DNA from: Clostridia bacterium | GTDB taxonomy: Bacteria; Bacillota; Clostridia; Oscillospirales; Acutalibacteraceae | NCBI GenBank assembly: GCA_017502085.1 | Contig: JAFVVQ010000057.1 | Location: 1-64,000, forward strand | Direction: 5' to 3' | DNA: 64,000 nt | In this document: piece after piece, positions 10,734 through 30,385 of the stretch | Position numbering within the stretch: the first letter of the stretch is position 1 | How the letters are laid out: each line of letters starts with the position of its first letter | The notes under the pieces: model-generated | Told to the model about the DNA's origin: nothing | Seen by the model: only the letters and a program-made list of their open reading frames with translations | Databases searched by the model: none | Program-made: the position numbers and the translations under genes

Positions 10734-10765
10734 AAAACTCTCTCCTTTGTAATGATTACCGTTCA

Positions 10766-10794
10766 ATTATATACCTAAAAAGAATAACTTTCAA
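10766..10794 (-). promoter_or_regulatory. Promoter of the ceramidase-like gene
   Basis: Minus-strand TTGAAA (10789-10794) and TATAAT (10766-10771), 17 bp apart. Confidence 0.75.
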
Positions 10795-10810
10795 GAGTTA
10801 ATTGCAACAG

Positions 10811-10839
10811 TTGATTCGTGCAGAAAAATGTGATATTAT
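10811..10839 (+). promoter_or_regulatory. Promoter of the GH130 gene
   Basis: TTGATT (10811-10816) and TATTAT (10834-10839), 17 bp apart, back to back with the ceramidase-like promoter. Confidence 0.7.
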
Positions 10840-10885
10840 AATGATATATTTCGGATATTTCCGCATTTTGAGAAGGAGAAGTATT

Positions 10886-11836
10886 ATGGCTAAAATTATT
10901 GGTGAGTCGATTAAGAACATTCCGTGGCAGGATAAACCCGAGGGATACAGATATCCTGTTTGGCGTTACAGCGGCAATCCTATTATCACAAGAGATAACC
11001 TCTATATGGCGAACAGCATTTTCAACTCTGCGGTTGTACCTTTCGGTGACGGCTTTGCAGGTGTTTTCAGAGTTGACGTTATGAGCCGTGACCATACTCT
11101 TGTTGTCGGTTACAGTAAGGATGCAATCAACTGGGAGCTTGAAGAGAAGGTTATTTTCAGGGGCTATGACCCCAGACTCTGCCTCATCGACGGCAAATAT
11201 TATCTCTCATGGGTTAATCTTACCCCTCACGGCACGACAATCGGTATTGCATACACAACCGATTTCAAGGAGTGGACTCAGCTTGAGGATGCGTGTTACC
11301 CCGTTGCAAGAAACGGCGTACTTTTCCCCAGAAAGGTCAATGACGAATATCTGCTTCTTATCCGTCCCTGTGACAGAGGTCATACACCCTACGGTGATAT
11401 TTTCCTCAGCCACAGCAAGGACCTTACTTATTGGGGCAAACACAGATTTGTTATGAAACCCGAAAAGAACTGGGAGATGACGAAGGTCGGTGCGGGTCCC
11501 ACACCTATTGAGACCGATGAAGGATGGCTGATGTTCTATCACGGCGTACTCACAAGCTGCAACGGTTTCACCTATGCAATGGGTGCGGCTATCCTCGATA
11601 AGGATGAGCCGTGGAAGGTGCTTCACAGAGCTGATTGCTTCCTTCTTGCACCGCACGAGCTTTATGAATTTGTCGGCGACGTGCCCAACGTTGTTTTCCC
11701 CTGTGCCGCTCTTGCTGATGCGGATACGGGCAGAATCGCAATCTATTACGGTGCGGCTGACACGAGCGTTGCTCTTGCATTCACAACCGTTGACGAGACT
11801 ATCGATTTCATCAAGAAGAACGATCTTATCAAATAA
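10886..11836 (+). CDS. GH130 family beta-mannoside phosphorylase-like protein
   Basis: 316 residues from the ATG at 10886 (ribosome site AGAAGGAG). GH130 enzymes are five-bladed beta-propellers that split beta-1,4- or beta-1,2-mannosides with phosphate, giving mannose 1-phosphate, in the cytoplasm. Typical blades are visible: YRYPVWRYSGNPII near residue 21, NSIFNSAVVP near 43, GYDPRLCLIDGKYYLS near 100, GAGPTPIETDEGWLMFYHG near 205 and AAILDKDEPWKVL near 235. No signal peptide. Subfamily and linkage cannot be fixed by eye; mannooligosaccharide phosphorylases are the closest in feel. With GH92 further on it points to mannan or N-glycan use. Confidence 0.88.
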   Translation: MAKIIGESIKNIPWQDKPEGYRYPVWRYSGNPIITRDNLYMANSIFNSAVVPFGDGFAGVFRVDVMSRDHTLVVGYSKDAINWELEEKVIFRGYDPRLCLIDGKYYLSWVNLTPHGTTIGIAYTTDFKEWTQLEDACYPVARNGVLFPRKVNDEYLLLIRPCDRGHTPYGDIFLSHSKDLTYWGKHRFVMKPEKNWEMTKVGAGPTPIETDEGWLMFYHGVLTSCNGFTYAMGAAILDKDEPWKVLHRADCFLLAPHELYEFVGDVPNVVFPCAALADADTGRIAIYYGAADTSVALAFTTVDETIDFIKKNDLIK

Positions 11837-17949: not shown

Positions 17950-19332
17950 TCAGAATTCGATGCGTGAAGCGATATATTCTTCAAGAGCATCGATTGAAAT
18001 GCGTTCCTGCTGCATTGTGTCTCTGTCTCTGACGGTTACGCAGTTGTCTTCGAGAGAGTCAAAGTCAAAGGTGATGCAGAGAGGTGTACCGATTTCGTCT
18101 TCGCGGCGGTAACGCTTGCCGATTGAACCTGTTTCGTCAAAGTCAACCATAAACTTCTTCTGAAGCTTTTCGTAAACCTTGAGAGCATCCTCGGAGAGCT
18201 TCTTCGAAAGGGGAAGAACCGCTGCCTTGAAGGGTGCGATTGCAGGATTCAGGTGAAGAACAACTCTTGTATCGTTCTTTTCTGCATCGATGACTTCTTC
18301 GTCATATGCTTCACAGAGAAGAGCGAGAACCGTTCTGTCAAGACCGTAGGTCGATTCAATGATGAAGGGGATGAATTTCTCGTTTGTTTCGGGATCGAGA
18401 TAATCCATCTTCTGACCGCTGTATTCCTGGTGTCTTGTGAGGTCGAAGTTTGTTCTGTTGTGAGTGCCGTTGATTTCGCCCCAACCGAAGGGGAAGAGGA
18501 ATTCGATATCGCAGGCAGCCTTTGCGTAGTGAGCGAGCTTTTCGTGATCGTGGAAACGGAGGTTTTCAGCGGCGATGCCGAGATCCTGATAGAACTTCAT
18601 ACCGTATTCCTTGAAGTAATCGTAAAGATCGCTGTCTGTGCCCTCTTTGCAGAAGGTCTGGAACTCCATCTGCTCAAACTCGATTGTTCTGAAGGTGAAG
18701 TTACCGGGAGTGATTTCATTTCTGAAAGCCTTACCGATCTGACCGATGCTGAAGGGAAGCTTTGCTCTCATTGTTCTCTGAACGTTGAGATAGTTGACGT
18801 ATTCGCCCTGAGCATTTTCGGGGCGGAGATAGATGATGTTTTTGCTGTCATTAGTGACGCCTCTGAAGGTCTGGAACATCAGGTTGAATTCTCTGATGCC
18901 CGTGAAGTCGTGCTTGCCGCAGTGGGGGCAGGGGATTGAATGAGCTTTGATATACTCAAACATCTCTTCCTTTGTCATACCGTCTGCGTGTGCGTTGGGA
19001 TCGAAATCGTCGATGAGGTTATCTGCTCTGTGACGCTTCTTGCATTCCTTACAGTCGAGAAGAGGGTCGGAGAAGCTGGCAACGTGGCCGCTTGCTTCCC
19101 AAACTCTGGGATGCATCAGGATATCCGCATCAACCTCGTAACTGTTTTTGCGTTCCTGAATGAATCTCTTTCTCCAGGCATCCTTGACGTTGTTTTTCAT
19201 TCTTGCACCGAGGGGGCCGTAGTCCCACGTGTTGGCAAGACCGCCGTAGATTTCACTGCCTGCGAAGATGAAGCCTCTGCCCTTGCAAAGGGCGACGATT
19301 TTTTCCATTGTTTTATCCTGATTATTCATCAT
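17950..19332 (-). CDS. glyS: Glycine--tRNA ligase, eukaryal/archaeal-like homodimeric type
   Basis: About 460 residues, class II synthetase of the dimeric type. Motifs: DYGPLGARMKNNVKDAWR near residue 35, NLMFQTFRG near 145, YLRPENAQG near 165 (motif 2 region), FRNEITP and FRTIEFEQMEFQTF near 200-215, and ESTYGLDRTVLALL near 330 (motif 3). A CxxC/CxxC pair (CKECKKRH, CPHCGKHD) could bind zinc. The ATG at 19332 is chosen because GGGAG lies 8 nt upstream; the ATG at 19350 has no ribosome site. The leader is only about 30 nt, so there is no T-box. Confidence 0.95.
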   Translation of the reverse strand: MMNNQDKTMEKIVALCKGRGFIFAGSEIYGGLANTWDYGPLGARMKNNVKDAWRKRFIQERKNSYEVDADILMHPRVWEASGHVASFSDPLLDCKECKKRHRADNLIDDFDPNAHADGMTKEEMFEYIKAHSIPCPHCGKHDFTGIREFNLMFQTFRGVTNDSKNIIYLRPENAQGEYVNYLNVQRTMRAKLPFSIGQIGKAFRNEITPGNFTFRTIEFEQMEFQTFCKEGTDSDLYDYFKEYGMKFYQDLGIAAENLRFHDHEKLAHYAKAACDIEFLFPFGWGEINGTHNRTNFDLTRHQEYSGQKMDYLDPETNEKFIPFIIESTYGLDRTVLALLCEAYDEEVIDAEKNDTRVVLHLNPAIAPFKAAVLPLSKKLSEDALKVYEKLQKKFMVDFDETGSIGKRYRREDEIGTPLCITFDFDSLEDNCVTVRDRDTMQQERISIDALEEYIASRIEF

Positions 19333-19368
19333 ATCCAAAACTCCCGCCATTATAATAATTTTGATAAT

Positions 19369-19397
19369 ATATTACCTTAAATATACATTAAAGTCAA
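19369..19397 (-). promoter_or_regulatory. glyS promoter
   Basis: Minus-strand TTGACT (19392-19397) and TAATAT (19369-19374) spaced by 17 bp. It may also drive the decarboxylase operon. Confidence 0.7.
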
Positions 19398-19412
19398 TAA
19401 ACTAAAGACTAA

Positions 19413-19441
19413 AAAAAGACCGTGCAAAACGGTCTTTTTTG
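19413..19441 (-). terminator. Terminator after the zinc-ribbon membrane gene
   Basis: AAGACCG/CGGTCTT hairpin with A and T runs on both sides; it lies 44 bp beyond the stop of the minus-strand gene at 19485. Confidence 0.8.
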
Positions 19442-19484
19442 GTTATTTATACTTATTCGATATTTTTTGCCGATTAAAGTCGGA

Positions 19485-20105
19485 TTATTTGCGTTTTGCG
19501 GGCATAATTTCACGGATAAAAGTCGCAAGATAACTTGCATCGTTGTTGTTCAGACCGTATATTCTGTAAACCTTGCCCTTGGCGGTTACGGTCACCGTGG
19601 GGAGTCCTCCCGAGGCGGGTATACGGCAACGGAAGTCGGTTATATCGTCATAGAAAAACTCGAATCTTTCGGGAATTAACAGGAATTTCGGTCTGATGCC
19701 GTAAACACCGTGAACGTTGACACAGACAAAGCTTTTTTTGCAGGTGGAAAATATGACGATGCCGATAACAAAAACTGCAAGGAGAAGCAGACCGATCAGA
19801 ACGTTCTTTACAATAAATTCGTCGTGCTCTGCGCGGGGAGTCCACTCGTATCTTTTCGGCAGACTTGTCACAAAGAGATAGACGGCGATAATTCCGTACA
19901 TAAAGCAGGAGGCAAGTATGCCGTCGCCGAAGCTGCCGCATTCGAAGAATCTGATGTTATCGCCGAGAGGAGATGTTGAGGGTGATGAGGAATCTGACCT
20001 TTTTCTGTATCCGACGGCTGCCGCTTTCTTGCTGATATATTTTCCGCATTCGGGGCAGATTTCGTCGGATTTATTTATTCTGTTTCCGCAGTATTTACAT
20101 TTCAT
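19485..20105 (-). CDS. Zinc-ribbon membrane protein of unknown function
   Basis: 206 residues from the ATG at 20105, preceded by AGGAGG. An N-terminal zinc ribbon (MKCKYCGNR, ICPECGKYI) is followed by two membrane helices (ILASCFMYGIIAVYLFV near residue 67 and LIGLLLLAVFVIGIVIFST near 110). The C-terminal part (HGVYGIRPKF, FEFFYDDITDFRC) has the look of a bacterial PH-like domain. Proteins of this layout are common in Clostridia; no function is assigned. Monocistronic. Confidence 0.78.
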   Translation of the reverse strand: MKCKYCGNRINKSDEICPECGKYISKKAAAVGYRKRSDSSSPSTSPLGDNIRFFECGSFGDGILASCFMYGIIAVYLFVTSLPKRYEWTPRAEHDEFIVKNVLIGLLLLAVFVIGIVIFSTCKKSFVCVNVHGVYGIRPKFLLIPERFEFFYDDITDFRCRIPASGGLPTVTVTAKGKVYRIYGLNNNDASYLATFIREIMPAKRK

Positions 20106-20125
20106 AATTACCGCCTCCTGCTGAT

Positions 20126-20154
20126 ATGATATCACGTTATGAGATAAACGTCAA
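20126..20154 (-). promoter_or_regulatory. Promoter of the zinc-ribbon membrane gene
   Basis: Minus-strand TTGACG (20149-20154) and TATCAT (20126-20131), 17 bp apart. Confidence 0.7.
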
Positions 20155-20157
20155 TAT

Positions 20158-20190
20158 AAAAAGACCCGACAGCGGATAACTGTCGGGCTG
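20158..20190 (-). terminator. mgtE terminator
   Basis: GCCCGACAG/CTGTCGGGT stem followed leftward by CTTTTTATA. Confidence 0.85.
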
Positions 20191-20194
20191 AATT

Positions 20195-21550
20195 CTATAT
20201 AAGGAATGCTTTTGCGAGTGCAAAGTAGATTACGAGAGTGACGATGTCGACAAGTGTTGCAATCATCGGACCTGCCATAAGTGCGGGGTCGAGTTTGATG
20301 ATTTTTGCAAAAATCGGGAGCGAACAACCGATGAGCTTTGCAACGACGATTGCAATAAACATTGCCAGGGATACAACGAGGAAAACTTCAATCGTACCTT
20401 CGCTGAAGAAATACATCCTCACTATGTTTGCTGCGCCGAGAACAAGTCCGCAGACTGTGGCAACCCGCAATTCCTTGAGCACGATTTTGAAATAATCCTT
20501 GATTTCGATTTCGCCGACGGCAAGACCGCGGATAATCAGAGTAGAAACCTGGCTACCTGCGTTACCGCCCGTACCCATCAGCATAGGCATCGATGCGGTC
20601 AGGGCAACAAAGCCCGAAAGCAGAGTTTCATAGCCCTCGATGATCATACCAGTGAAGGTGCCTGAAACCATAAGGATGAGAAGCCAGAGGATTCTGTTTC
20701 TGGCAAGTTTGAACACACCCGTTTTGAGGTATTCGTCATCTGACGGGGTCATAGCCGCCATCTTTTCAAAGTCTTCGGTAACCTCTTCTTCGATAACGTC
20801 AACAACGTCGTCGATGGTGATGATGCCGACGAGTCTGTTTTCGTTGTCAACAACGGGTACACTCAGAAGGTCGTATTTACTTACGATATCGGCAACGTAT
20901 TCTCTGTCGTCAAGGGTGTTGACCGAAATGAACTGCGGCTCTTCCTCCATAATATCGCCGACGAGCGTTTCCTTGTCGCAGAGAAGAAGCGAAAGCAGGG
21001 GAATGCTGCCCAGAAGATGGCGGTGACTGTCGGTGCAGTAACAGGTGTAGACCGTTTCTTTGTCGACGCCCGTCTTTCTGATATGCTCGATTGCCTGGGC
21101 GGCGGTGAAGCTTGTGTGAAGCTGCACCATTTCAATTGTCATTATACTGCCCGCACTGTCCTCGGGGTATTTGAGGAAACGGTTGATAAGTTTGCGGGTT
21201 TCGGGGTCGGAGTGCGAAAGCACTCGTGTGACAACGTTTGCAGGGACTTCTTCAAGAAAGTCAACAACGTCATCAAGGAACATTTCGTCGAGCAGTCTCT
21301 CAAGCTCGGCGTCGTTAATCATTCGGACAAGCTCCTCCTGAGAGTCGCTTTCGAGGTAGGCGAAAACGTCTGCCGAAATATCCTTCGGCAATACCCGGAA
21401 AACGAAAAGTCTTTCCTTTGCCTCAAGTTCGTCCATCAGAAGGGCGGTATCAACTGCGTTCATCTCGGAAAAGAGCTCGCGCAGAGATGAAATTTCTCCG
21501 TTAGAAATAAGCTCGGGCACTTTTTCAACGAGCATCTCGAGTTCTTCCAT
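20195..21550 (-). CDS. mgtE: Magnesium transporter MgtE
   Basis: 451 residues from the ATG at 21550; AAAGGAG lies 11 nt upstream and is part of a hairpin. MgtE is a Mg2+-gated homodimeric channel. The N domain (residues 1-125, FLEEVPANVVTRVL), two CBS domains (VGDIMEEEPQFIS and VPVVDNENRLVGIITIDDVVDVI) and the pore domain of five helices are visible, including the pore sequence MPMLMGTGGNAGSQVSTLIIRGLA near residue 325 and the C-terminal LDPALMAGPMIATLVDIVTLVIYF. Complete length. It is transcribed alone behind a leader of about 220 nt. Confidence 0.96.
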   Translation of the reverse strand: MEELEMLVEKVPELISNGEISSLRELFSEMNAVDTALLMDELEAKERLFVFRVLPKDISADVFAYLESDSQEELVRMINDAELERLLDEMFLDDVVDFLEEVPANVVTRVLSHSDPETRKLINRFLKYPEDSAGSIMTIEMVQLHTSFTAAQAIEHIRKTGVDKETVYTCYCTDSHRHLLGSIPLLSLLLCDKETLVGDIMEEEPQFISVNTLDDREYVADIVSKYDLLSVPVVDNENRLVGIITIDDVVDVIEEEVTEDFEKMAAMTPSDDEYLKTGVFKLARNRILWLLILMVSGTFTGMIIEGYETLLSGFVALTASMPMLMGTGGNAGSQVSTLIIRGLAVGEIEIKDYFKIVLKELRVATVCGLVLGAANIVRMYFFSEGTIEVFLVVSLAMFIAIVVAKLIGCSLPIFAKIIKLDPALMAGPMIATLVDIVTLVIYFALAKAFLI

Positions 21551-21604
21551 AAAAAAAGCATCTCCTTTCATCGGTAATCAGAAATACCGGCGCAAAGGCG
21601 ATGC
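21551..21604 (-). promoter_or_regulatory. Terminator-like hairpin overlapping the mgtE ribosome site
   Basis: On the minus strand GCATCGCCTTT pairs with AAAGGAGATGC (10 of 11 pairs), enclosing an inner CGGTA/TACCG hairpin, and runs directly into seven Ts before the mgtE ATG. The right arm contains the ribosome site AAAGGAG. Such a form would stop transcription and hide the ribosome site at once, the usual output of a riboswitch. Confidence 0.7.
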
Positions 21605-21772
21605 AGTCAAAACAAAACAAGAGCGATACCGACGTTATGAAAAACGCGGCTCACTTCGGTGGCTGAAAGACAGCTCCGCCGTTGCGGCTGATTGAATTGA
21701 AAATCTACTTCGGGGGCTTGGTTTATCGGAACTGCCCAAAAAAATCACCACACTTAAAAAATTTTTTTGTAA
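21605..21772 (-). promoter_or_regulatory. mgtE 5' leader, candidate regulatory RNA
   Basis: About 165 nt of leader upstream of the terminator hairpin, with GC-rich segments that can pair (GCTG/CAGC and CGG/CCG near 21655-21685, CGATA/TATCG across the domain). I looked for the conserved M-box core found before mgtE in Bacillus and did not see it. The leader is a candidate Mg2+-responsive element of another kind. Confidence 0.5.
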
Positions 21773-21808
21773 CATCATAATGTTACACCCTTTGACGCCT
21801 CAAGTCAA
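21768..21808 (-). promoter_or_regulatory. mgtE promoter with overlapping palindromic operator
   Basis: Minus-strand TTGACT (21803-21808) and TAACAT (21780-21785), 17 bp apart. A perfect inverted repeat TGTAACAT-CATA-ATGTTACA (21768-21787) covers the -10 box, so a repressor bound there would block transcription. Confidence 0.6.
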
Positions 21809-21849
21809 GCAAATTTGCAAAATAATATGAAAAATAAATCTATTGTGTA

Positions 21850-21957
21850 AAAACGGAGAAAAACGGAGGTATATGCCCCGAATCGGGTGAAAACGGCTGA
21901 AAACGGGAGGAGATTTGCGTCAAATTTGAAAAATGAGTTCACAAAAATGAGTGAACT
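21850..21957 (+). promoter_or_regulatory. Phased AAAACGG repeats, palindrome and inverted repeat upstream of the terminase genes
   Basis: Four AAAACGG copies start at 21850, 21860, 21890 and 21900, so all lie on the same face of the helix. Between the two pairs is the palindrome CCCGAATCGGG (21877-21887). Thirty bases on is AGTTCAC/GTGAACT (21936-21957). No clear sigma-A promoter was found. The arrangement suits a protein-DNA complex, such as a packaging site for the small terminase or an operator. Confidence 0.55.
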
Positions 21958-22021
21958 AAACCCGTGTTTCAGACTATGGGTGAGAGGAGTTTTCAGTTTG
22001 CTCCCCGGAAAGGATGATTGT

Positions 22022-22504
22022 TTGAAAAAAAGTCTTACGGAAAAAGAGAAGCTGTTTTGCAGCTATTATGCGGGATTCGGCGATGCGAGAGGCTGCGCCG
22101 CAAGAGCAGGCTATTGCATTTCTCCTGCAAAAAGTGCTGAAAAGCTTCTTGCCAGAAGTGACATCAGAGCTGAAATCGAACGCCTCGAAAAAGAACGCAG
22201 ACCGTATTCTTCCCAGGCTGAAAAGGGACTGTACAGACTTGCATTCGGATCGGTTACGGATGCACTGAAACTGCTGCTTTGTGAGGAAACAATGAGCGCA
22301 GAGGAAATTGAAAAGCTGGATTTATTCAACGTTTCGGATATCAAGCGTCCGAAGGGCGGAGGTATGGAAATCAAGTTTTTTGACCGACTCAAGGCTCTTG
22401 AAAAACTCGCAACCCTCGGCGGCGGTGCGGAAAATACGGAAAGCAGTTTTATCAGGGCGCTTTCCGAAGGGGCAAGGCTTCTCTCGGAGGAGGAAGATAA
22501 TTGA
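22022..22504 (+). CDS. Phage terminase small subunit
   Basis: About 160 residues from a TTG start at 22022, with AAAGGA 7 nt upstream; the open frame extends 45 codons further but without a ribosome site. The protein opens KKSLTEKEKLFCSYY and continues AARAGYCISPAKSAEKLL, the helix-turn-helix pattern of terminase_2 small subunits. Small terminase binds the packaging site and loads the large subunit. The C-terminal part (FDRLKALEKLATLGG) fits oligomer/effector regions. It overlaps the large-subunit start by 4 bp. First gene of the head-packaging cassette. Confidence 0.88.
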   Translation: MKKSLTEKEKLFCSYYAGFGDARGCAARAGYCISPAKSAEKLLARSDIRAEIERLEKERRPYSSQAEKGLYRLAFGSVTDALKLLLCEETMSAEEIEKLDLFNVSDIKRPKGGGMEIKFFDRLKALEKLATLGGGAENTESSFIRALSEGARLLSEEEDN

Positions 22505-23775
22505 ATCCGTCAAACAAGAAATCCGCTTTCACTCCGTTTTCGCCAAAGCAAATGAAAGCGCTGTGCTGGTGGATGCCCGAAAGTCCCTTCAGCGGCTACG
22601 ATGCCGTTATCTGCGACGGTGCGGTGCGCTCGGGTAAAACGCTCTGCATGTCGGTTTCGTTTGTGACATGGGCGTTTTCGGTATTTTCCGATTCCTCCTT
22701 CGCTCTTTGCGGTAAAACCATCGCTTCCCTCCGCAGAAACGTTGTGACGGTTATTCTGCCCGTTCTGCGTGAACTCGGTTTCGAATGCAACGAAAAATAT
22801 TCGCGCAATCTTATTGAAATATCGCATTCGGGCAGAACTAACAGATTCTATCTTTTCGGCGGTAAGGATGAAGGGTCGGCGGCTCTGATTCAGGGCATGA
22901 CCCTTGCCGGCGTACTGCTCGACGAGGTGACGCTGATGCCCCGTTCCTTCGTCGAACAGGCACTCGCACGATGCTCTGTTGAAGGCTCGAAGCTATGGTT
23001 CAACTGTAATCCCGAACACCCTATGCACTGGTTTCATGAGGAATGGATAAAGAAAAAGGATGAAAAAAACTGCTTCTATCTCCATTTCACGATGAAGGAT
23101 AACCCGTCGCTCACACAGTCTATTATCCGCCGATACGAGAAACTCTATTCGGGTGCGTTCTATGAAAGATTCGTTCTCGGCAGATGGGTTGCGGCACAAG
23201 GCTGTGTCTACCCGATGTTTTCTCACGAAAAGCACGTCGAAGAGCCTCCCGACGTTATGGAGGAATTCTGCATCTCCTGTGATTACGGTACCGTCAATCC
23301 GTCATCCTTCGGCCTCTGGGGGAGAAACGGCAGAGTATGGTACAGAATCGACGAATACTATTTTGATTCAAGAGCAGAGGGTCGGCAGAAAACCGACAGC
23401 GAGCATTACGCCTCCCTTTGTGAGCTTGCAGACGGCAGAAAAATCGGATCGGTTATCGTTGACCCGTCAGCGGCAAGTTTCATCGAATGCATCAGGCGTG
23501 ACGGCAGATTCAGGGTGATTCCTGCGAAAAATGACGTCATAGACGGTATCCGCAGAGTTTCGGATTGCCTCAAGGACGGCACTCTGAAGTTTTCACCCCG
23601 TTGCAGGGACAGTATCAGGGAATTCGGGCTTTACCGTTGGGAAGAAAATTCCGCAAAGGATTCAGTCAGAAAAGAAAATGACCATGCCATGGATGATATC
23701 CGTTATTTTGTTTCGACGGTTGCTTCAGCCGTTGATGACGGCGGATTTTTCGCTTTGGCTACAACAAGAAGATAG
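22501..23775 (+). CDS. Phage terminase large subunit
   Basis: 424 residues, the usual size for PBSX-type large terminases, from a TTG start behind GGAGGAGG. The ATPase has Walker A GAVRSGKT (40-47) and Walker B VLLDE (138-142) with coupling motif NCNPEHP near 168. The RNase H-like nuclease keeps its acidic residues: Asp261 (CDYGTVNP), Asp321 (VIVDPSAAS) and Asp394/398 (NDHAMDDI). Both activities therefore look intact, so the protein could still cut DNA and pump it into a procapsid. Neighbours are small terminase and portal. Confidence 0.93.
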   Translation: MNPSNKKSAFTPFSPKQMKALCWWMPESPFSGYDAVICDGAVRSGKTLCMSVSFVTWAFSVFSDSSFALCGKTIASLRRNVVTVILPVLRELGFECNEKYSRNLIEISHSGRTNRFYLFGGKDEGSAALIQGMTLAGVLLDEVTLMPRSFVEQALARCSVEGSKLWFNCNPEHPMHWFHEEWIKKKDEKNCFYLHFTMKDNPSLTQSIIRRYEKLYSGAFYERFVLGRWVAAQGCVYPMFSHEKHVEEPPDVMEEFCISCDYGTVNPSSFGLWGRNGRVWYRIDEYYFDSRAEGRQKTDSEHYASLCELADGRKIGSVIVDPSAASFIECIRRDGRFRVIPAKNDVIDGIRRVSDCLKDGTLKFSPRCRDSIREFGLYRWEENSAKDSVRKENDHAMDDIRYFVSTVASAVDDGGFFALATTRR

Positions 23776-23790
23776 GAAAGGAGGAATCGG

Positions 23791-24936
23791 ATGGGCTTAT
23801 TCAAAAACAGAAAAAACGAAAGGGTTTCGATGCCCGTAACGCAGAATGCAAACCGCCATCCCTTCGGTATTATTGATGGATATGTGCCTCTCGGCGCACC
23901 CTGTATGAGACTTTATAAGGCGCTCCGCGAAGCAGTACCCGTTATCGATGCTGCGGTGTTCAAACTTGTACGTCTGACGGGTGGATTCCGAGTGAAATGC
24001 TCCGACGATGCGGCTCAGGCGGCAATTGATGAGTTTATGGAATCGGTGCCCGTCGGCGGTAACAGATACGGTATGGCGGCGTTTGTTTCGGCTTATTTCG
24101 AACAGCTTCTCACCTACGGCACTGCACTCGGCGAAATTGTTACCGATTCGGAGGGTATGCCCTGTGCACTTTTCAATGCTCCGCTTGAAGGGATTGAACT
24201 CAAAAGGGCACGAAACGGCTTCGATATCGAGGTTTTCGTGCGCAGAGGCGGTGAACTCAAAAAAGCTCCCAGACAGGATTTGTGTCTGCTGAGCGTACTC
24301 AATCCCGATGCGGGTGCACTGACAGGAAATTCGCTTCTCAAGGGTATGCCGTTTGTCAGCGGAATATTGCTGAAAATTTTCGAGAGCATCGGTGCAAACT
24401 GGGAGAGAGTCGGCAATCTGCGTTTCGCAGTGACTTATAATCCCCGGAACGACCCGATGGACAGAGCGTATGCCAAAGACAGGGCTTTGCAAGTGGCGAA
24501 AGAGTGGGGCGAGGCGATGCAGAGCGGTTCGCAGATCAAGGATTTCGTTGCGGTAGGCGACGTGCAGATAAAAGTCATCGGCGCGGATAATCAGATACTT
24601 GACAGTGACGTGCCCGTACGCCAGATGCTTGAGCAGATTGTCGCCAAAACGGGTCTGCCGCCCTTTATGCTCGGTCTTTCGTGGTCGAGCACGGAGCGTA
24701 TGAGCTCCCAGCAGGCAGACGTGCTCACAAGCGAACTTGAGGCGTACAGACGTATTCTGACCCCCGTCATCAGAAAAATCTGTATTGCGTATCTGCGAGG
24801 CAGGGGCTTCAGCTGCAATCCTGCCGTAATCTGGGATAACATAACCCTTCAGGATGAGGTCGAGCTCAGCAGAGCAAGGCTTTATAACGCTCAGGCAGAA
24901 AAGCTTGAGGCTGAAAATAAAAAGAGAGGTGAATGA
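23791..24936 (+). CDS. Phage portal protein
   Basis: 381 residues preceded by GGAAAGGAGG. The sequence has the portal pattern: alpha/beta body (PVIDAAVFKLVRLTGGF near residue 50), a long helical stem and FMLGLSWSSTERMSSQQADVL near 300, similar to HK97-type and related portals where this segment precedes the crown helix. It would form the ring through which DNA enters the head. Its stop overlaps the protease start (ATGA), showing translational coupling. Confidence 0.88.
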   Translation: MGLFKNRKNERVSMPVTQNANRHPFGIIDGYVPLGAPCMRLYKALREAVPVIDAAVFKLVRLTGGFRVKCSDDAAQAAIDEFMESVPVGGNRYGMAAFVSAYFEQLLTYGTALGEIVTDSEGMPCALFNAPLEGIELKRARNGFDIEVFVRRGGELKKAPRQDLCLLSVLNPDAGALTGNSLLKGMPFVSGILLKIFESIGANWERVGNLRFAVTYNPRNDPMDRAYAKDRALQVAKEWGEAMQSGSQIKDFVAVGDVQIKVIGADNQILDSDVPVRQMLEQIVAKTGLPPFMLGLSWSSTERMSSQQADVLTSELEAYRRILTPVIRKICIAYLRGRGFSCNPAVIWDNITLQDEVELSRARLYNAQAEKLEAENKKRGE

Positions 24937-25799
24937 CGATTAATACCGAAAAAAACGGCGTTGCATTGCCCGAGGAGGAACTTGAACTTATCGGGCAGTT
25001 TGCAACAAAAAAACTTTCAATGGATGAAATTTATATATTTTCGCTCATCCTCTGCGATAACGAAATCGACAGAGATAACGAAAAGTTTACAATTCCCGCA
25101 CTCAGGGAACTTGCAAAGCTTTACGTGGGAAAGACGGGTATTTTTGACCACAATATGAGCACAAAGGACCAGAATGCGAGAATTTATTCAACTGAATTTG
25201 TGACTGACGCAAGTCGCAAAACAACTGACGGTGAACCTTATTCATACGTCAAGGCAAAGGCTTATATGGTCAGAACAGAGAAGAATAAGGATCTCATTGC
25301 CGAAATTGAGGCAGGCATCAAGAAGGAAACGAGCGTCGGCTGCAGTGTGAAAAAAATCAGCTGCTCCGTTTGCGGCAAAAACATCAGGGAGGACGGCTGT
25401 ACTCATCGCAAGGGTAATACCTATGCAGGCAAGTATTGCTGCTATCTGCTTGAAGATCCCGCAGATGCGTATGAGTGGTCGTTTGTGGCAGTTCCCGCCC
25501 AGAAAAATGCAGGTGTCACAAAGGCATACAACCCTTCGGATGATGATAACAGTGCAGATATCTGGGCAGATGAATACAGAAACGAGCTTAAATCCGCTCT
25601 TATCAGGGATGCCGCAACGGTTATTCCCGAAATGAAAAGCCCCGTTCTTGAGGAAATCTGTGACGGGCTGAGCATCGGTAAGCTCAAGGCGATGCGTGAT
25701 GCATTCAGGCTCAAGGCGGAAAAGAATCTGCCTCTTGTCAGACAGCTTGACTGCGACAGCAACGCAGATGACGACTCGAATTCCGAGTATAAGATTTAA
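24933..25799 (+). CDS. Prohead protease with a cysteine-rich insertion
   Basis: 288 residues. The N-terminal two-thirds match the HK97-type (S78) prohead protease pattern: FDHNM with His73, KETSVGCSV with Ser134, and YEWSFVAVPAQ with Glu181, the equivalent of EVSLV..PAN. Between the Ser and Glu motifs lies an insertion with Cys144, Cys147, Cys156, His158 and Cys169/170, which could bind zinc. The protease removes scaffold and capsid N-termini during maturation. The helical C-terminus (about 215-275) may serve as a scaffold domain. Related proteins with the same insertion occur, to my knowledge, in clostridial prophages. Confidence 0.8.
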   Translation: MTINTEKNGVALPEEELELIGQFATKKLSMDEIYIFSLILCDNEIDRDNEKFTIPALRELAKLYVGKTGIFDHNMSTKDQNARIYSTEFVTDASRKTTDGEPYSYVKAKAYMVRTEKNKDLIAEIEAGIKKETSVGCSVKKISCSVCGKNIREDGCTHRKGNTYAGKYCCYLLEDPADAYEWSFVAVPAQKNAGVTKAYNPSDDDNSADIWADEYRNELKSALIRDAATVIPEMKSPVLEEICDGLSIGKLKAMRDAFRLKAEKNLPLVRQLDCDSNADDDSNSEYKI

Positions 25800-25811
25800 G
25801 GAGGAAAAAAT

Positions 25812-26147
25812 ATGTCAGTATCATTCGGCGGCTTTCACAACGAAACCGCAACATTCAGAACAGAAAACGAAATCACAAAGGGTACACCCGTCAAAATCAC
25901 TGCAAACGGTACCGTTTCAGCTTGCGCGGAGGGTGATTCTTTCTGCGGAATTCTTGCTAACGGCGACAGCGCTTATGCGGCTGTGCAGATTTACGGTGAG
26001 GTAACCGCAAAGTTCAGCGGCACCGCTCCTGCACTTGGCTACACAAAGCTTGCCGCCGGCAAAGACGGTGTCAAGAGCGGCTCAGGCAGAGAATATCTGG
26101 TCGTATCCGTTGATGAAACTGCAGGTACGGTTACATTTCTTATGTAA
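25812..26147 (+). CDS. Capsid cement/decoration-like protein
   Basis: 111 residues, Gly- and Ala-rich beta sequence (KGTPVKITANGTVSAC, VQIYGEVTAKFSG, LVVSVDETAGTVTFLM) placed between the prohead protease and major capsid genes, where head decoration or cement proteins of the DUF2190 type are found. AAGGAGG lies upstream. It probably binds the outside of the capsid. The identification rests on position, size and general composition, not on a signature motif. Confidence 0.65.
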   Translation: MSVSFGGFHNETATFRTENEITKGTPVKITANGTVSACAEGDSFCGILANGDSAYAAVQIYGEVTAKFSGTAPALGYTKLAAGKDGVKSGSGREYLVVSVDETAGTVTFLM

Positions 26148-26165
26148 GAAAGGAGAAGGAATATA

Positions 26166-27170
26166 ATGGCTGATTTTGATAATATTAAACTCGAAAAGGG
26201 GCTTTACGCCTCAGGCAATTTTACAAAGGCTCTCGAAAGCCTTGATCCCAGTGAAAACTATACAGGCACTTCCCTTGAGGGCCTCGATGCATACCAGCGT
26301 CAGCTCAAGCGTTTTGGCATCAAGGTAGGCGGTGCGGGCAGTGACGTTGTTGATAAGTTCTTCAAGACTTCCGACAGTGCGGTGCTTTTCCCCGAATATA
26401 TTTCAAGAGCTGTCAGACAGGGTCTTGAACAGGCTGATATTCTGCCCACGGTTGTTGCTTCAACAACTGTATTCGACGGCCTTGATTACCGTTCAATCAC
26501 ATCTCTCCCCACTGATGAGGAGAAGGAACTTAAAATCGTCAGCGAGGGTGCATTTATTCCCGAAACGAATATCCGCACAAAGGAAAACCTTGTCAAACTC
26601 CGCAAGAGGGGGCGCTCTTTGGTCGCTTCGTATGAAGCGATAAGATTCCAGCGCCTTGACCTCTTCACCGTAACACTCCGTCAGATCGGCGCATACATTG
26701 CGAGAACACTTCTCAAGGATGCGATCGAGGTTATTGAAAACGGTGACGGCAACGGCAATCCCGCTGAGGTTATGAGCTGTGCCGCCTCAGGCACTCTTTC
26801 ATACGGCGATCTCGTCGATTTCTGGAACAGCTTTGATCCTTATGAACTCAACACAATCATTGCGGAACCTGCCGTTATGGCGAAACTTCTCAAGATGGAA
26901 GAGTTCAGGGATGCTTCGGCGGGACTTAACTTCCACGGCAAGGGTAAGGAAATCACTCCTCTCGGCGCAAAGCTTCTCAAGTCAAATGCCGTCAACACGG
27001 GTACTCTCATCGGTCTCGACAAGACTGCTGCACTCGAAATGGTCAAGACGGGTGACATTATGACTGAATATGACAAGCTTATTGACCGTCAGCTTGAAAG
27101 GGCAGTCATCAGCTGCACTGCAGGCTTTGCCAAGATTTTTGACGGAGCATCAAAGGTGCTTTCCGTTTAA
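26166..27170 (+). CDS. Phage major capsid protein
   Basis: 334 residues with AAAGGAG upstream. It has the HK97-fold layout: helical N-terminal part, then the spine region, PLGAKLLKSNAVNTGTLIGLDKTAALEMV near residue 260, and a C-terminal beta strand segment (ERAVISCTAGFAKIFDG). The position after protease and cement genes fits. There is no long N-terminal delta domain, so scaffolding may come from the protease gene's C-terminal region. The intact frame and normal length indicate selection to keep it. Confidence 0.85.
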   Translation: MADFDNIKLEKGLYASGNFTKALESLDPSENYTGTSLEGLDAYQRQLKRFGIKVGGAGSDVVDKFFKTSDSAVLFPEYISRAVRQGLEQADILPTVVASTTVFDGLDYRSITSLPTDEEKELKIVSEGAFIPETNIRTKENLVKLRKRGRSLVASYEAIRFQRLDLFTVTLRQIGAYIARTLLKDAIEVIENGDGNGNPAEVMSCAASGTLSYGDLVDFWNSFDPYELNTIIAEPAVMAKLLKMEEFRDASAGLNFHGKGKEITPLGAKLLKSNAVNTGTLIGLDKTAALEMVKTGDIMTEYDKLIDRQLERAVISCTAGFAKIFDGASKVLSV

Positions 27171-27183
27171 GGGGATGAACTAT

Positions 27184-27549
27184 TTGATTGACTGCTGGAG
27201 AGTGCTCTCGGCACTGAGAGAATATTATTCCTACGGCGAAACGGATGCAGAGCTTATTCCGATCTGCGAATCAACCGCAAGAGAATTGACCGCAAGGGTC
27301 AAGCCGAATGCGGATTGCTCGGATATCAGGCTTATCAATGCCGCTGCAGCAATGGCTAATCACAGGCTCTGCGTCAAAAAACTGCATTCCGATGAGGGCG
27401 TGACCTCCTTTAAAGCGGGTGACGTGACGGTAAGTATTTCACCCGCTGCACTTGCGGAAAATGCGGAAAAAGAAAAAACACGTGCGATTATTGCGGCTCT
27501 TCCTCTGCTAAGGGATGAAGAATTCCTTTTCAGGCAGGTGAGCATATGA
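27184..27549 (+). CDS. Head-tail connector-like protein
   Basis: About 121 residues from a TTG at 27184, which has AAGGGG 9 nt upstream; the ATG at 27175 is an alternative but abuts that site. The mostly helical sequence (CWRVLSALREYYSY, LINAAAAMANHRLCVKKL) and its place directly after the capsid gene fit a gp6-like adaptor that docks under the portal. No sequence signature proves this. Its end overlaps the next start (ATGA). Confidence 0.68.
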   Translation: MIDCWRVLSALREYYSYGETDAELIPICESTARELTARVKPNADCSDIRLINAAAAMANHRLCVKKLHSDEGVTSFKAGDVTVSISPAALAENAEKEKTRAIIAALPLLRDEEFLFRQVSI

Positions 27550-27878
27550 AGCTGAAACGGATGTTTGAAAATTACGGCAGAGCTGTTTCACTCGTATCGA
27601 AAGACGGCGGCACAATAGCGGAAACAAGCGCTCTGATAAGTCCGTTGCGATATAAAAATAAGATGTACCTTTACGGAGTCAATACCGAAATCGGTTACAA
27701 TTCTCAGGGTCATTATCTTTATATCGGACCGCCTGAACCCGACCTTGCGAGCCTCGAAAACGGCGAATACGTGAAGTGTGGGGACGAAAAATACAGAATC
27801 GACAGGGCGGAGCGGGTATACAAGGGAAACGAAGTCTTCTATATCTGGGCAATAATCAGAGTGATAGTTGAAAATTAA
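27546..27878 (+). CDS. Head-closure-like small protein
   Basis: 110 residues starting within an ATGA overlap. The beta-rich sequence (YLYGVNTEIGYNSQGHYLYIGP, VFYIWAIIRVIVEN) and position after the adaptor suit a head-closure or stopper protein that seals the packed head. The segment CGDEKYRIDRAERVY resembles the pattern of proteins in this gene order. The assignment is positional. Confidence 0.6.
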   Translation: MKLKRMFENYGRAVSLVSKDGGTIAETSALISPLRYKNKMYLYGVNTEIGYNSQGHYLYIGPPEPDLASLENGEYVKCGDEKYRIDRAERVYKGNEVFYIWAIIRVIVEN

Positions 27879-27889
27879 GAGGTGAAAAT

Positions 27890-28732
27890 ATGAGCGCAAT
27901 CAGTTCAATGCCCGCTAACATTGTGGTGTGGCTCAAAGAAAGAGAAGAACTTAAATATATCAAATTCCTTACGGAATACCCCGCAATCAAAAAGGAAGTG
28001 CCGCTGCGAAACACAACCGTTGCAGTCGGAATAGACGGTATGACCATCGTTGATTCATTTGTCGAAAATGATGAAGGAGTGCTTGTTGAAAACGAAAATT
28101 GCAGACAGGTCAATATCAAACTGCGTTTTTCGATTCACGCGCCGTTTTCCTCGGGTGGTGCGGCTTGTCACGAGGCTTTCACCGATATCATCGATTGCCT
28201 GACTTTTGATTCTGCGCTTAACATCGATTCATCGGGCTGCGACAGCATTGTTTCTGACAGAGATACGGATGCATTTGTGCTTACGGCATGGGCGACGGTT
28301 ATTGCGTCACTCTGCCCTGCGGATGGCTCCTCTGTTGATTTGCCTTCTTTTTTGGGCAAGGAGCTGTTTTGTGCTTCGCACATCAAGGATGAGAGCATAC
28401 ATCTCACTGCAGAGCAGCAGATGTTTCTGGGAGAACCTGCCGTTGCGGGCTCATATATGGGCGGAGGCAGCGCACCGAATACGGTTAATGTCGGCTTCAG
28501 ACCGAGGCTGGTTCTGGTTACGGGATATAATCATCCTCCGCTCTATGTCAATTTTTCCGAGCAGAAATGCTATATTTACTGGGGAATGGCGTTTGAGGAC
28601 GGTAATTCATACGGAATCGAACTGACAGCAAATGGTTTCAAGGTGTTCAACAACAGTTCAACTCCCTCAAGAGGATGCTATCCGCTTCTCAATGAAATCG
28701 GCACACCGTATAAATACATAGCGTACAGATAA
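27890..28732 (+). CDS. Last gene of the capsid cassette: neck-like region joined to a fibre-knob-like region
   Basis: 280 residues with GAGGTG upstream. Residues 1-150 (VAVGIDGMTIVDSF, RQVNIKLRFSIHAPFSSG) have the alternating pattern of tail-terminator or neck proteins. A short link (LPSFLGKELFCASHIK) leads to residues 185-280: AGSYMGGGSAPNTVNVGFRPRLVLV, then a Gly-rich beta region ending PYKYIAYR. That form is common at the C-terminus of phage tail fibres and host-binding knobs. If correct, a host-binding domain is attached directly to the head vertex without a tail. The fusion reading is inference. It is the last gene before a terminator of the convergent operon. Confidence 0.6.
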   Translation: MSAISSMPANIVVWLKEREELKYIKFLTEYPAIKKEVPLRNTTVAVGIDGMTIVDSFVENDEGVLVENENCRQVNIKLRFSIHAPFSSGGAACHEAFTDIIDCLTFDSALNIDSSGCDSIVSDRDTDAFVLTAWATVIASLCPADGSSVDLPSFLGKELFCASHIKDESIHLTAEQQMFLGEPAVAGSYMGGGSAPNTVNVGFRPRLVLVTGYNHPPLYVNFSEQKCYIYWGMAFEDGNSYGIELTANGFKVFNNSSTPSRGCYPLLNEIGTPYKYIAYR

Positions 28733-28770
28733 AAAAAGGAGCAACCCGATTTTGTTATTCGGGTTGCTCC
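28731..28770 (-). terminator. Terminator between the capsid cassette and the nitroreductase operon
   Basis: GGAGCAACCCGA/TCGGGTTGCTCC, a 12-bp stem followed on the minus strand by a seven-T run. On the plus strand the T-tract is poor, so it mainly serves the minus-strand operon. Confidence 0.88.
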
Positions 28771-28784
28771 GGTTTCTTATAATA

Positions 28785-29483
28785 TTATGCGAAATCCGTA
28801 ATCTTTCTGCCGCTGCCGAGCTCAAAATGGTATTCCGCAATTCCGAGGTCGATTTTGTTGCAGGAAAAAGTACCGTTGACGGTTGTGATAACTTTTTCGG
28901 GTGTATATTTAAAGAAGACGGGTTGTTTGTTTCTTGCCGAGGGAGCCTTGACCGCACAGTCAACGCCTTTTTTGAACCATTCGGGTGCCGTATCGTAGTC
29001 TGCGCTCATTTCGCGGGAAGATTTTCTTTTGGTTTTGATGATTCCCGAAAGAAGTTTTTCCTTGAAATTCTCGGTTTCTTTTATTTCTCCGACGGAAATT
29101 ACGCAGGCGAGAGCTTCGCCTTCGGCAAGGGCGTCAGCAATGGAGGTCTTGTCGTAACTGCCCGCAACCCAGCAAGTGCCGAGTCCTAGCCTTGTTGCTT
29201 CAAGCACAAGTTCTTCACCGTAAAATCCTGCTTTTTCGTGCATTTTCGGATCATCCGTCCTGCCCGCAAGCAGAAAATAACTCTTTACACCGCTGAACAT
29301 TCCGTAGCTTTTGATGAGACCGAAACATTCTTCGCCGTTTTCGGCAAGTTCGATGCGAAGACCCGAACGGGAGCAGAGACTGTCGATTACTGTCTGCAAC
29401 GCAACCTTTTTATCCGGGCTGATAGGTTCTGGAATATAGGCTCTTCTTGAAATTCTGATGTCGGAAGCTTCAAGCAGGGTCAT
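28785..29483 (-). CDS. Nitroreductase family protein
   Basis: 232 residues of the FMN-dependent nitroreductase family, in the form with a long N-terminal half. The start RISRRAYIPEPIS fits the first FMN-binding motif, and GFYGEELVLEATRLGLGTCWVAG near residue 85 is the typical central helix; VKAPSARNKQP near 178 contacts flavin. Such enzymes reduce nitro compounds, quinones or other electron acceptors with NAD(P)H. It lies 2 bp behind the deacetylase gene and is the last gene of a four-gene operon. Physiological substrate unknown. Confidence 0.85.
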   Translation of the reverse strand: MTLLEASDIRISRRAYIPEPISPDKKVALQTVIDSLCSRSGLRIELAENGEECFGLIKSYGMFSGVKSYFLLAGRTDDPKMHEKAGFYGEELVLEATRLGLGTCWVAGSYDKTSIADALAEGEALACVISVGEIKETENFKEKLLSGIIKTKRKSSREMSADYDTAPEWFKKGVDCAVKAPSARNKQPVFFKYTPEKVITTVNGTFSCNKIDLGIAEYHFELGSGRKITDFA

Positions 29484-29485
29484 TT

Positions 29486-30385
29486 TTATTTCCTCATTTC
29501 GGCAAGGTCACGGTAGTTGATGAGCTTGATGCCGTGAGCCTCGATATGCTGTCTTGTTGCGGGGTCCTTGAGAAGCTCGTATTCCCAGACTCTGCGTTCC
29601 CAGCAGCCCGATGCTCCCTTGAGGTCGTCGGTGGGGTAGGAGGGATGCATATAGGTTTCAGTGATTCCTTCGGGCATACTTGCATAGAGATCGTAAACAT
29701 ATTCCTTGAAATTCTTGTAGCTTTCAGTCTGAGGTTCGTTCCATTCGTTGGGGATAAGATGGTCGGGAACTGCCACGCCGAGCTGACGGATGAAGCCGAC
29801 AAGCTGACCGAGCATACCGTGAATCATTTCTTTGTCGATATTGATATCGAGCATTGTATTGGAAAGCTGAGCATCGGAGAAGGATGCGGGAAAACGGAAA
29901 GGCAGACCGTATTCTGCGGCGGTCTGAAGAGTCATCTGAAGAAGTTCGAATCTGCCGGTCTCGATGCCGTAGAGTGAACCCATATGGTTATCAAGATGAG
30001 AGGGGTTTGTCAGACCGAGGATTCTGCAGCGCTCAATCTGTGCCTTGATTTCAGCTCTTGCTTCTTCGAGGTCAACGTTCTTTTCAACCTGATCGCTTTC
30101 GTGCCACATAAAGCCTTCTTCGTCACGCAGAGAAGCGGTATTTGAGGCGTTGACGGGTGCCCAGCGGTAGTTTGACCATTCGCTTGTGAGGGTGAGGTGA
30201 ACGCCGATTGCATACTGCGGATTTTCTGCGGCAAATTTGCAGGCTTCGGGTGCCCAGGCACAGGGGGCCATAATTGTTGCGGATGTAAGAGCGCTCTTGG
30301 GATCCTTGAAAAGGTCAGCGACGGCGAGGTTAGCGCCTCTGCACATACCGAAATCGTCTGCATTGATGATGAGATATCTGTCCAT
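29486..30385 (-). CDS. ChbG/YdjC-type carbohydrate deacetylase
   Basis: 299 residues. The family removes the N-acetyl group from amino-sugar oligosaccharides using a divalent metal. Motifs: LIINADDFGMCRGAN at residue 4 (metal-binding Asp pair), GVHLTLTSEW near 62, and SHLDNHMGSLYG near 128 with metal-ligand histidines. The length fits. No signal peptide, so it acts on imported sugars. It is cotranscribed with a GH92 mannosidase, which suggests work on N-acetylated host glycans such as N-glycan cores; this is inferred. Confidence 0.87.
   Translation of the reverse strand: MDRYLIINADDFGMCRGANLAVADLFKDPKSALTSATIMAPCAWAPEACKFAAENPQYAIGVHLTLTSEWSNYRWAPVNASNTASLRDEEGFMWHESDQVEKNVDLEEARAEIKAQIERCRILGLTNPSHLDNHMGSLYGIETGRFELLQMTLQTAAEYGLPFRFPASFSDAQLSNTMLDINIDKEMIHGMLGQLVGFIRQLGVAVPDHLIPNEWNEPQTESYKNFKEYVYDLYASMPEGITETYMHPSYPTDDLKGASGCWERRVWEYELLKDPATRQHIEAHGIKLINYRDLAEMRK

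Follow-up and report, generated by a model that had tools for sequence, protein, structure and literature searches.

A nine-gene phage-head cassette of Oscillospirales as a probable domesticated, gene-transfer-agent-like particle of tailless form

A cluster of nine phage-derived genes lies in the stretch comprising the first 64,000 nucleotides (the window) of contig JAFVVQ010000057.1, from the Clostridia bacterium assembly GCA_017502085.1 (Oscillospirales; Acutalibacteraceae). Our analysis suggests that this cluster probably encodes a domesticated, vertically inherited particle comparable to the gene transfer agents (GTA), which has been reduced to a tailless form. Its nine open reading frames (ORF) are arranged in a fixed order on the + strand at approximately 22,022-28,732, with every frame open and with neighbors that either show small overlaps or are separated by at most 18 bases; the cassette is bounded by mgtE upstream and a nitroreductase gene downstream. 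The original prediction, made from the window alone, had described nine intact, tightly packed head and packaging genes between these two flanks, and both the ORFs and the family matches bear this out. Among the readings which it offered, namely a GTA-like particle, a capsid-forming satellite and an immunity or secretion device, the first is the one that the evidence supports.

Results and discussion

Phyletic distribution, selection and descent

The capsid gene was recovered from the source genome and 28 of 36 genomes of the same genus, with a single match in each and no stop codons, and from just one of the 23 genomes that the same draw took from elsewhere in the order. All nine genes are present in 25 of the 29 same-genus loci (the source genome included), the remaining four being cut by contig ends. 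Of the 394 genomes of the order in a wider draw, 71 encode the capsid; the family accounts for 43 of those drawn and for 35 of the positives, and related clusters are present in several families of the order. Double capsid matches occur in two of the 71 positive genomes, one pair being fragments at contig ends. Fragments of the capsid gene in one genome, G429, were considered as a case of decay and rejected as such, given that both sit at contig ends (throughout, L numbers denote loci and G numbers the genomes compared). The two contigs concerned, C15 and C29, break off inside two nearly identical capsid genes, within the first 57 residues of each, suggesting two copies. A class-wide draw yielded capsid matches in 12 of 393 genomes, nine of them within the order (the source genome included) and three, more distant, outside it. 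At the model threshold used, these three loci share with the window only the capsid, the small head protein and the protease, and ORFs as long as a tape measure protein, at about 1,770 residues, occur in two of them.

Pairwise distances for eight of the cassette genes (gene 5 left out) correlate with those of GlyRS with Spearman coefficients of 0.69-0.81 across 19-20 of the 21 genomes tried, one having been left out because it lacked a complete GlyRS, and none of 2000 permutations reached any of these values. From these comparisons the cluster appears to be inherited vertically with its host as a single chromosomal copy. The ratio of nonsynonymous to synonymous substitution rates (dN/dS; NG86, up to 13 near pairs) is 0.016-0.31 for all nine genes, which are thus under purifying selection, and 0.013-0.055 for the neighboring mgtE. 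The highest value of the cassette, 0.31, belongs to gene 5, with TerL at 0.03-0.13, the portal at 0.03-0.12, the capsid at 0.016-0.26 and gene 9 at 0.07-0.16 (10 pairs). A search for the block in related genomes and an estimate of dN/dS for capsid, portal and TerL had been proposed along with the original prediction; the block recurs in sister species, and the ratios of these three genes are low, as are those of all nine. The accompanying view that this is not a decayed prophage is likewise upheld by the open frames, the capsid matches free of stops and the low dN/dS.

In the large terminase, residues D141, E142, D261, D321 and D398 are kept in all 118 aligned sequences (those longer than 330 residues, out of 123 found) and the Walker A motif in 117 of them. 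These residues comprise the Walker B motif and the nuclease aspartates of a conserved packaging motor, in agreement with the earlier claim that TerL retains both its ATPase and nuclease residues.

The sister genomes G007 and G009, which have no capsid, show how the cluster can be lost. In each, a short ORF in which a fragment of TerS runs on into the end of gene 9 adjoins a gene read as HPr; the same HPr-like gene is found directly after gene 9 in six other loci. The two scars therefore define the unit as running from TerS to gene 9, and as one that can be lost.

A tail terminator fused to a fibre tip

The last gene of the cassette, gene 9, encodes a tail terminator fused to the tip of a lost short fibre. 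A neck model matches its residues 1-156 (3.6e-22) and a model of the fibre from the longer relatives described below matches residues 144-280 (3e-21), with no cross-matches between the neck and fibre model sets. The N-terminal half resembles tail terminators in fold, and the predicted C-terminal structure has a pLDDT of at least 88 across most blocks; the coverage obtained with VIA-align falls chiefly on residues 1-147, so that it says little about how the binding domain folds. Sequence comparison of gene 9 with the PDB gave no confident match, the best E being 0.029. Across 14 near pairs the fibre half shows 49-92% identity and the N-terminal half 85-97%, the former thus changing much faster than the terminator half. 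The original prediction had called this product a neck/knob protein: the neck part stands, as a terminator, whereas the remainder is, by the neck and fibre models, a fused fibre tip.

In a midpoint-rooted FastTree phylogeny of 108 rows, 19 of them without a form label, 41 of 42 loci labelled as fused fall in a single clade (43 rows, support 98), to which the terminator-fibre fusion is restricted. The remaining locus, L191, labelled as fused on account of its gene length, was rejected when no fibre domain was found. The preceding gene 8 gave no Foldseek match at E <=0.001; its weak matches are to stoppers and necks, including that of the GTA of Rhodobacter capsulatus (RcGTA; 6tba_3A, E 0.041) and the SPP1 connector (7z4w_1, E 0.13).

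Long forms and other reduced forms

Clustering of the genes of 110 loci uncovered recurrent + strand genes downstream of the neck in part of the relatives. This long form of the cluster encodes LysM, gpD-like, gp45, gp25, gpJ and gp48 proteins and, in some cases, a separate short fibre. The corresponding Pfam families are LysM, Phage_Mu_Gp45, Sheath_initiator, Baseplate_J (1.4e-48) and Phage_Mu_Gp48, with the matches to Phage_Mu_Gp45 and Sheath_initiator falling under the curated cut-offs; the gpD-like protein is a putative assignment from reading its sequence, in which no Pfam family was matched. The long form occurs as one gene run in genomes of the window's family and of another family (L184-L189). 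Examples include L186, L189, L078, L129 and L128, the last from a Pseudoflavonifractor strain, and the order of the head and packaging genes is that of the window in most loci read. L078 adjoins mgtE, the same neighbor as in the window. In these long-form loci no integrase, sheath, tube or tape measure was recognized among the ORFs of six loci and the Pfam matches of ten proteins, with no dedicated search made. Rule-based labelling of 210 loci, duplicates included, gave 58 short, 90 long and 62 other forms, labels which depend on the extent of each contig and on a sample of loci chosen for similarity to the window.

A gpJ model built from the long forms finds that of G502 at 3.1e-104, and has zero matches in the source genome and in all 23 same-genus genomes searched, neither lysis genes nor further baseplate families being covered by this search. 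It is likewise without a match in four of five other genomes of the fused clade that were searched (five of six when the same-genus G035 is counted). We take these comparisons to suggest that the baseplate module is missing from the window's clade and that the cluster is akin to the longer, baseplate-bearing ones. The original prediction had treated tail, integrase and lysis genes adjacent to the block in close relatives, with att sites at its ends, as the mark of a recent prophage remnant; baseplate genes do lie directly downstream in more distant relatives, but no integrase was seen in the loci read.

Tail reduction may have occurred more than once. A neck gene with no fibre or baseplate within 10 kb is seen in L077, L079, L081, L082, L089, L098 and L032, and a gpJ search of seven neck-only genomes gave no match. 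Another lineage (L177, L179 and L182) apparently has eight genes, the last being gpD-like, as indicated by weak model matches or by position. Its order is TerS-TerL-portal-protease-capsid-gene 7, ending in the gpD-like gene, and in L177 a 257-amino-acid protein preceding the latter seems, on reading its sequence, to combine two parts, one like a terminator and one like a tube. A rearranged order, TerL-Dec-capsid-portal-protease, was observed in L108, L113, L114, L119, L124 and L133, four of the six being titled Oscillospiraceae.

Comparison with known systems

RcGTA possesses a tail, baseplate and fibres. Like the present cluster it is a domesticated phage cluster, and its chains (6tba) match gene 8, weakly, and the N-terminal fold of gene 9; it differs in having its own tail, baseplate and fibres, which are not seen in the window, where the binding domain is on the terminator. 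The contractile baseplates of the Mu/P2 type share the Pfam families of the long form, though the module is absent from the window, and their sheath, tube and tape measure were not recognized in the long-form loci read. Head and packaging genes are likewise encoded by the capsid-forming phage-inducible chromosomal islands (cfPICI), which in addition possess an integrase and replication genes and rely on tails taken from elsewhere. The first of these features is shared with the window, whereas integrase and replication genes are not seen in its cassette.

By description rather than by sequence, the nearest published system would be FpGTA of Faecalibacterium (Borodovich et al., Nat Commun 2026, PMC12946183), the only publication found to bear directly on this cluster. 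That report describes particles of ~40 nm without identifiable tails that contain 8.4-8.9 kb DNA, with capsid and portal detected by mass spectrometry, and a cluster present in all 12 Faecalibacterium genomes examined (PMC12946183). Ten ORFs form operon I, and a distant operon II encodes a baseplate, tail fibre, receptor-binding protein (RBP), holin and endolysin (PMC12946183). The likeness lies in a host-kept cluster of TerS, TerL, portal and capsid genes in gut bacteria, FpGTA also having a scaffold and belonging to the Ruminococcaceae. In contrast, the genus of the window has nine genes, a terminator-fibre fusion and no gpJ-type gene found, the two systems having been compared by description only. 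GTA-like packaging is also reported for other Ruminococcaceae, Oscillospiraceae and Christensenellaceae, a strong candidate operon being named in one of the four assemblies searched (PMC12946183). The present clusters would be candidates for some of this remaining GTA-like packaging in faeces.

Proposed particle and alternative explanations

In the proposed mechanism the packaging motor would fill a small capsid with pieces of the host chromosome; the terminator ring would seal the neck and present several receptor-binding domains directly; the particle would dock on related cells without a tail; and its release would proceed through lysis, using genes located elsewhere. A more specific formulation, which we hold tentatively and with a little less than even confidence, is that of a minimal, nine-gene, tail-free GTA in which loss of the baseplate and fusion of the fibre tip to the terminator took place in one event, leaving cell recognition to the neck, and which, together with its long-form relatives, has been passed down in several families of gut Oscillospirales, and may explain part of the GTA-like packaging in human faecal particles.

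Several observations weigh against a vertically inherited, tailless, GTA-like particle. The particle, its packaged DNA and transfer are, for this lineage, predictions from genes alone; no lysis gene was identified, with no model search for such genes made. The absence of the baseplate depends on a single gpJ-type model, and in one genome of the fused clade, G570, that model finds a distant match (1.8e-21). The direction of change from long to fused form is deduced from the tree and from the missing N-terminus of the fibre. Furthermore, eight of the 36 same-genus genomes have no capsid match, including G007, which is listed as 100% complete, and the element is therefore dispensable; the genomes used are mostly metagenome assemblies. 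Finally, dS is close to saturation in many pairs, and between the window and L052 the capsid value (0.79) is close to that of mgtE (0.77), with five other cassette genes at 1.06-2.08.

Among the alternatives, it is conceivable that particles are assembled and host DNA is packaged into them, yet none of it is delivered, and that they act as a decoy, a bacteriocin-like killer or a means of DNA disposal by lysing cells. We regard this as unlikely. In its favor, the cassette matched no family of tails, baseplates or enzymes that cut cell walls, and for FpGTA delivery is treated as an open question and a role like that of PBSX is raised (PMC12946183). Nevertheless, conservation of the motor and portal, together with diversification of the binding domain, is as expected for cell recognition. 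As for the killing variant, particles of the tailocin/PBSX type require a tail, and the cassette has none. That the device is not truly tailless, its tail or baseplate being supplied in trans, appears distinctly improbable. The precedent is the second FpGTA operon, with its baseplate, fibre, RBP, holin and endolysin, situated ~125 kb away in one strain (PMC12946183), and the match in G570 points the same way; against these stand the absence of gpJ from the source genome, from all same-genus genomes and from most other fused-clade genomes searched, as counted above, and the presence of the fibre tip on the terminator, which in tailed phages sits at the head-proximal end of the tail.

The head-only gene set resembles the head cassettes of capsid-forming satellites, and the same genome harbors an ordinary siphophage-type prophage whose tail a cfPICI-like satellite could use as that of a helper. 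We consider a satellite very improbable, contrary to one option of the original prediction, because the cassette and the scanned flanks lack integrase and replication genes, a single copy is present and it is inherited with the host; no regulator or primase family was found in these proteins either, the cluster tracks a host gene, and a fibre-type domain closes its neck. A recently stranded prophage remnant might account for phage-derived genes that have no integrase or lysis genes, and for the loss of the cluster from some sister genomes with a scar left behind, yet we find this scarcely credible in view of the open frames, the low dN/dS, the correlation with GlyRS distances, the spread across several families of the order and the same neighbor in many species. 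The conservation of the DNA-packaging motor in 118 of 118 TerL sequences makes the immunity or secretion device of the original prediction unlikely; so is a storage or secretion shell in general, because it would not need such a motor. An encapsulin or other DNA-free shell was also considered, and is ruled out by the conserved TerS, TerL and portal.

Annotation of the cassette and its genomic setting

The features of the cassette and its immediate flanks are collected in Table 1. The start of TerS is most likely the TTG at 22,022 rather than 21,887, because the former aligns with the ATG of relatives, and gene 7 probably begins with the ATG at 27,175. Gene 4 is a probable HK97-type protease, as suggested by its position and a motif. 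Scans against families of the Pfam and PHROGs type gave no useful match for genes 7-9.

Table 1. Positions of the cassette genes, associated repeats and flanking genes in the window
Feature	Position	Strand	Evidence or comment
AAAACGG direct repeats (four), region upstream of TerS	21850..21906	+	copies at 21850, 21860, 21890, 21900; possible regulator site
TerS, small terminase	22022..22504	+	PF03592 5.6e-13; ORF open from 21887
TerL, large terminase	22501..23775	+	PF03237 4.6e-15; phrog_2 4.1e-45
Portal protein	23791..24936	+	phrog_30703 1.7e-134
Gene 4, probable head maturation protease	24933..25799	+	phrog_16951 2.8e-98 (family without PHROGs function)
Gene 5, small head (decoration-like) protein	25812..26147	+	phrog_4588 1.1e-24, virion structural protein
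Major capsid protein	26166..27170	+	PF25209 1.2e-15; phrog_3922 6e-97
Gene 7, putative head-tail adaptor (from position)	27175..27549	+	same place in 67/110 clustered loci, duplicates counted
Gene 8, head-tail stopper-like	27546..27878	+	AlphaFold2 model pLDDT 84; weak Foldseek matches
Gene 9 N-terminal domain (residues 1-141), tail terminator	27890..28312	+	fold and sequence-model matches
Gene 9 C-terminal domain (residues 171-280), putative receptor-binding tip of lost fibre	28400..28732	+	fibre-model match
mgtE, Mg2+ transporter, upstream flank, outside element	20195..21571	-	PF01769 3e-38
Nitroreductase, downstream flank, outside element	28785..29483	-	PF14512 2e-53

The setting is that of a housekeeping region, with mgtE upstream and nitroreductase, YdjC and GH92 genes downstream; the mgtE cluster is present in 25 of the 110 loci (duplicates counted). 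No integrase, replication or repressor gene was found in the cassette or among ten flanking proteins scanned, and no phage family was matched by these ten or by the nitroreductase, the remaining genes of the 64 kb not all having been scanned. No Rfam family was detected within 19,000-30,000. The GC content of the cassette (0.46-0.52 per kb) is unremarkable against that of the whole window (0.42-0.52), of which the kb at 24,001 is the maximum. The source genome (G000) comprises 66 contigs and 2.63 Mb at a completeness of 84.5%, and its nearest named relatives are mainly metagenome assemblies from ruminants and, in one case, a horse, titled Clostridia or Oscillospiraceae. On another of its contigs (C17, 8000-27900; L062) lies an ordinary-looking siphophage-type prophage with an HK97-type capsid and an 815-amino-acid ORF of tape-measure size.

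At least one copy of AAAACGG is found upstream of TerS in 15 of 15 close loci versus four of 17 more distant ones, and pairs spaced by 10 bp in nine of the 15, counts that carry no chance expectation; the repeats are a possible operator of the cluster. The motif GAAC-N4-GTTC is absent from the 32 upstream regions examined.

Relatives in virus collections

In IMG/VR, 402 stretches encode a relative of the capsid, and 46 and 5 of the 80 kept were respectively labelled as long and short forms. A 34.5-kb phage contig, L210 (IMGVR_UViG_3300032038_000365), encodes a TerL, portal and capsid belonging to the phage itself (phrog_9, 12 and 10). At 10001-10978, close to genes for replication and a helicase, it has in addition a second, intact capsid gene, which is of the window type and 67% identical to that of the window; this phage may borrow from the particle or interfere with it. 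A capsid of the window type is also encoded by records from human faecal samples titled "Bacteriophage sp.", namely L032 (MT835508.1), MT835952, MT836604, MT835769 and MT838993. MT835508 is plainly a bacterial chromosome (RpoA, SecY, Rnf-type proteins and ABC transporters), similar in gene order to locus L098 from a Ruminococcus metagenome-assembled genome. The faecal records may stem from a study of virus-like particles in Mexico (PMC8361208).

Implications

Such clusters are easily taken for phages in public virus collections. Few lineages are known to possess gene transfer agents, and FpGTA was, according to its authors in 2026, the first to be described from the human gut microbiome (PMC12946183). 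The clusters described here would constitute a broad family with a readable history, in which a form with head and baseplate was followed by a clade that has no baseplate and bears a binding tip on its neck. On the whole, the family would make the smallest set of parts for cell recognition, and perhaps for DNA delivery, directly testable.

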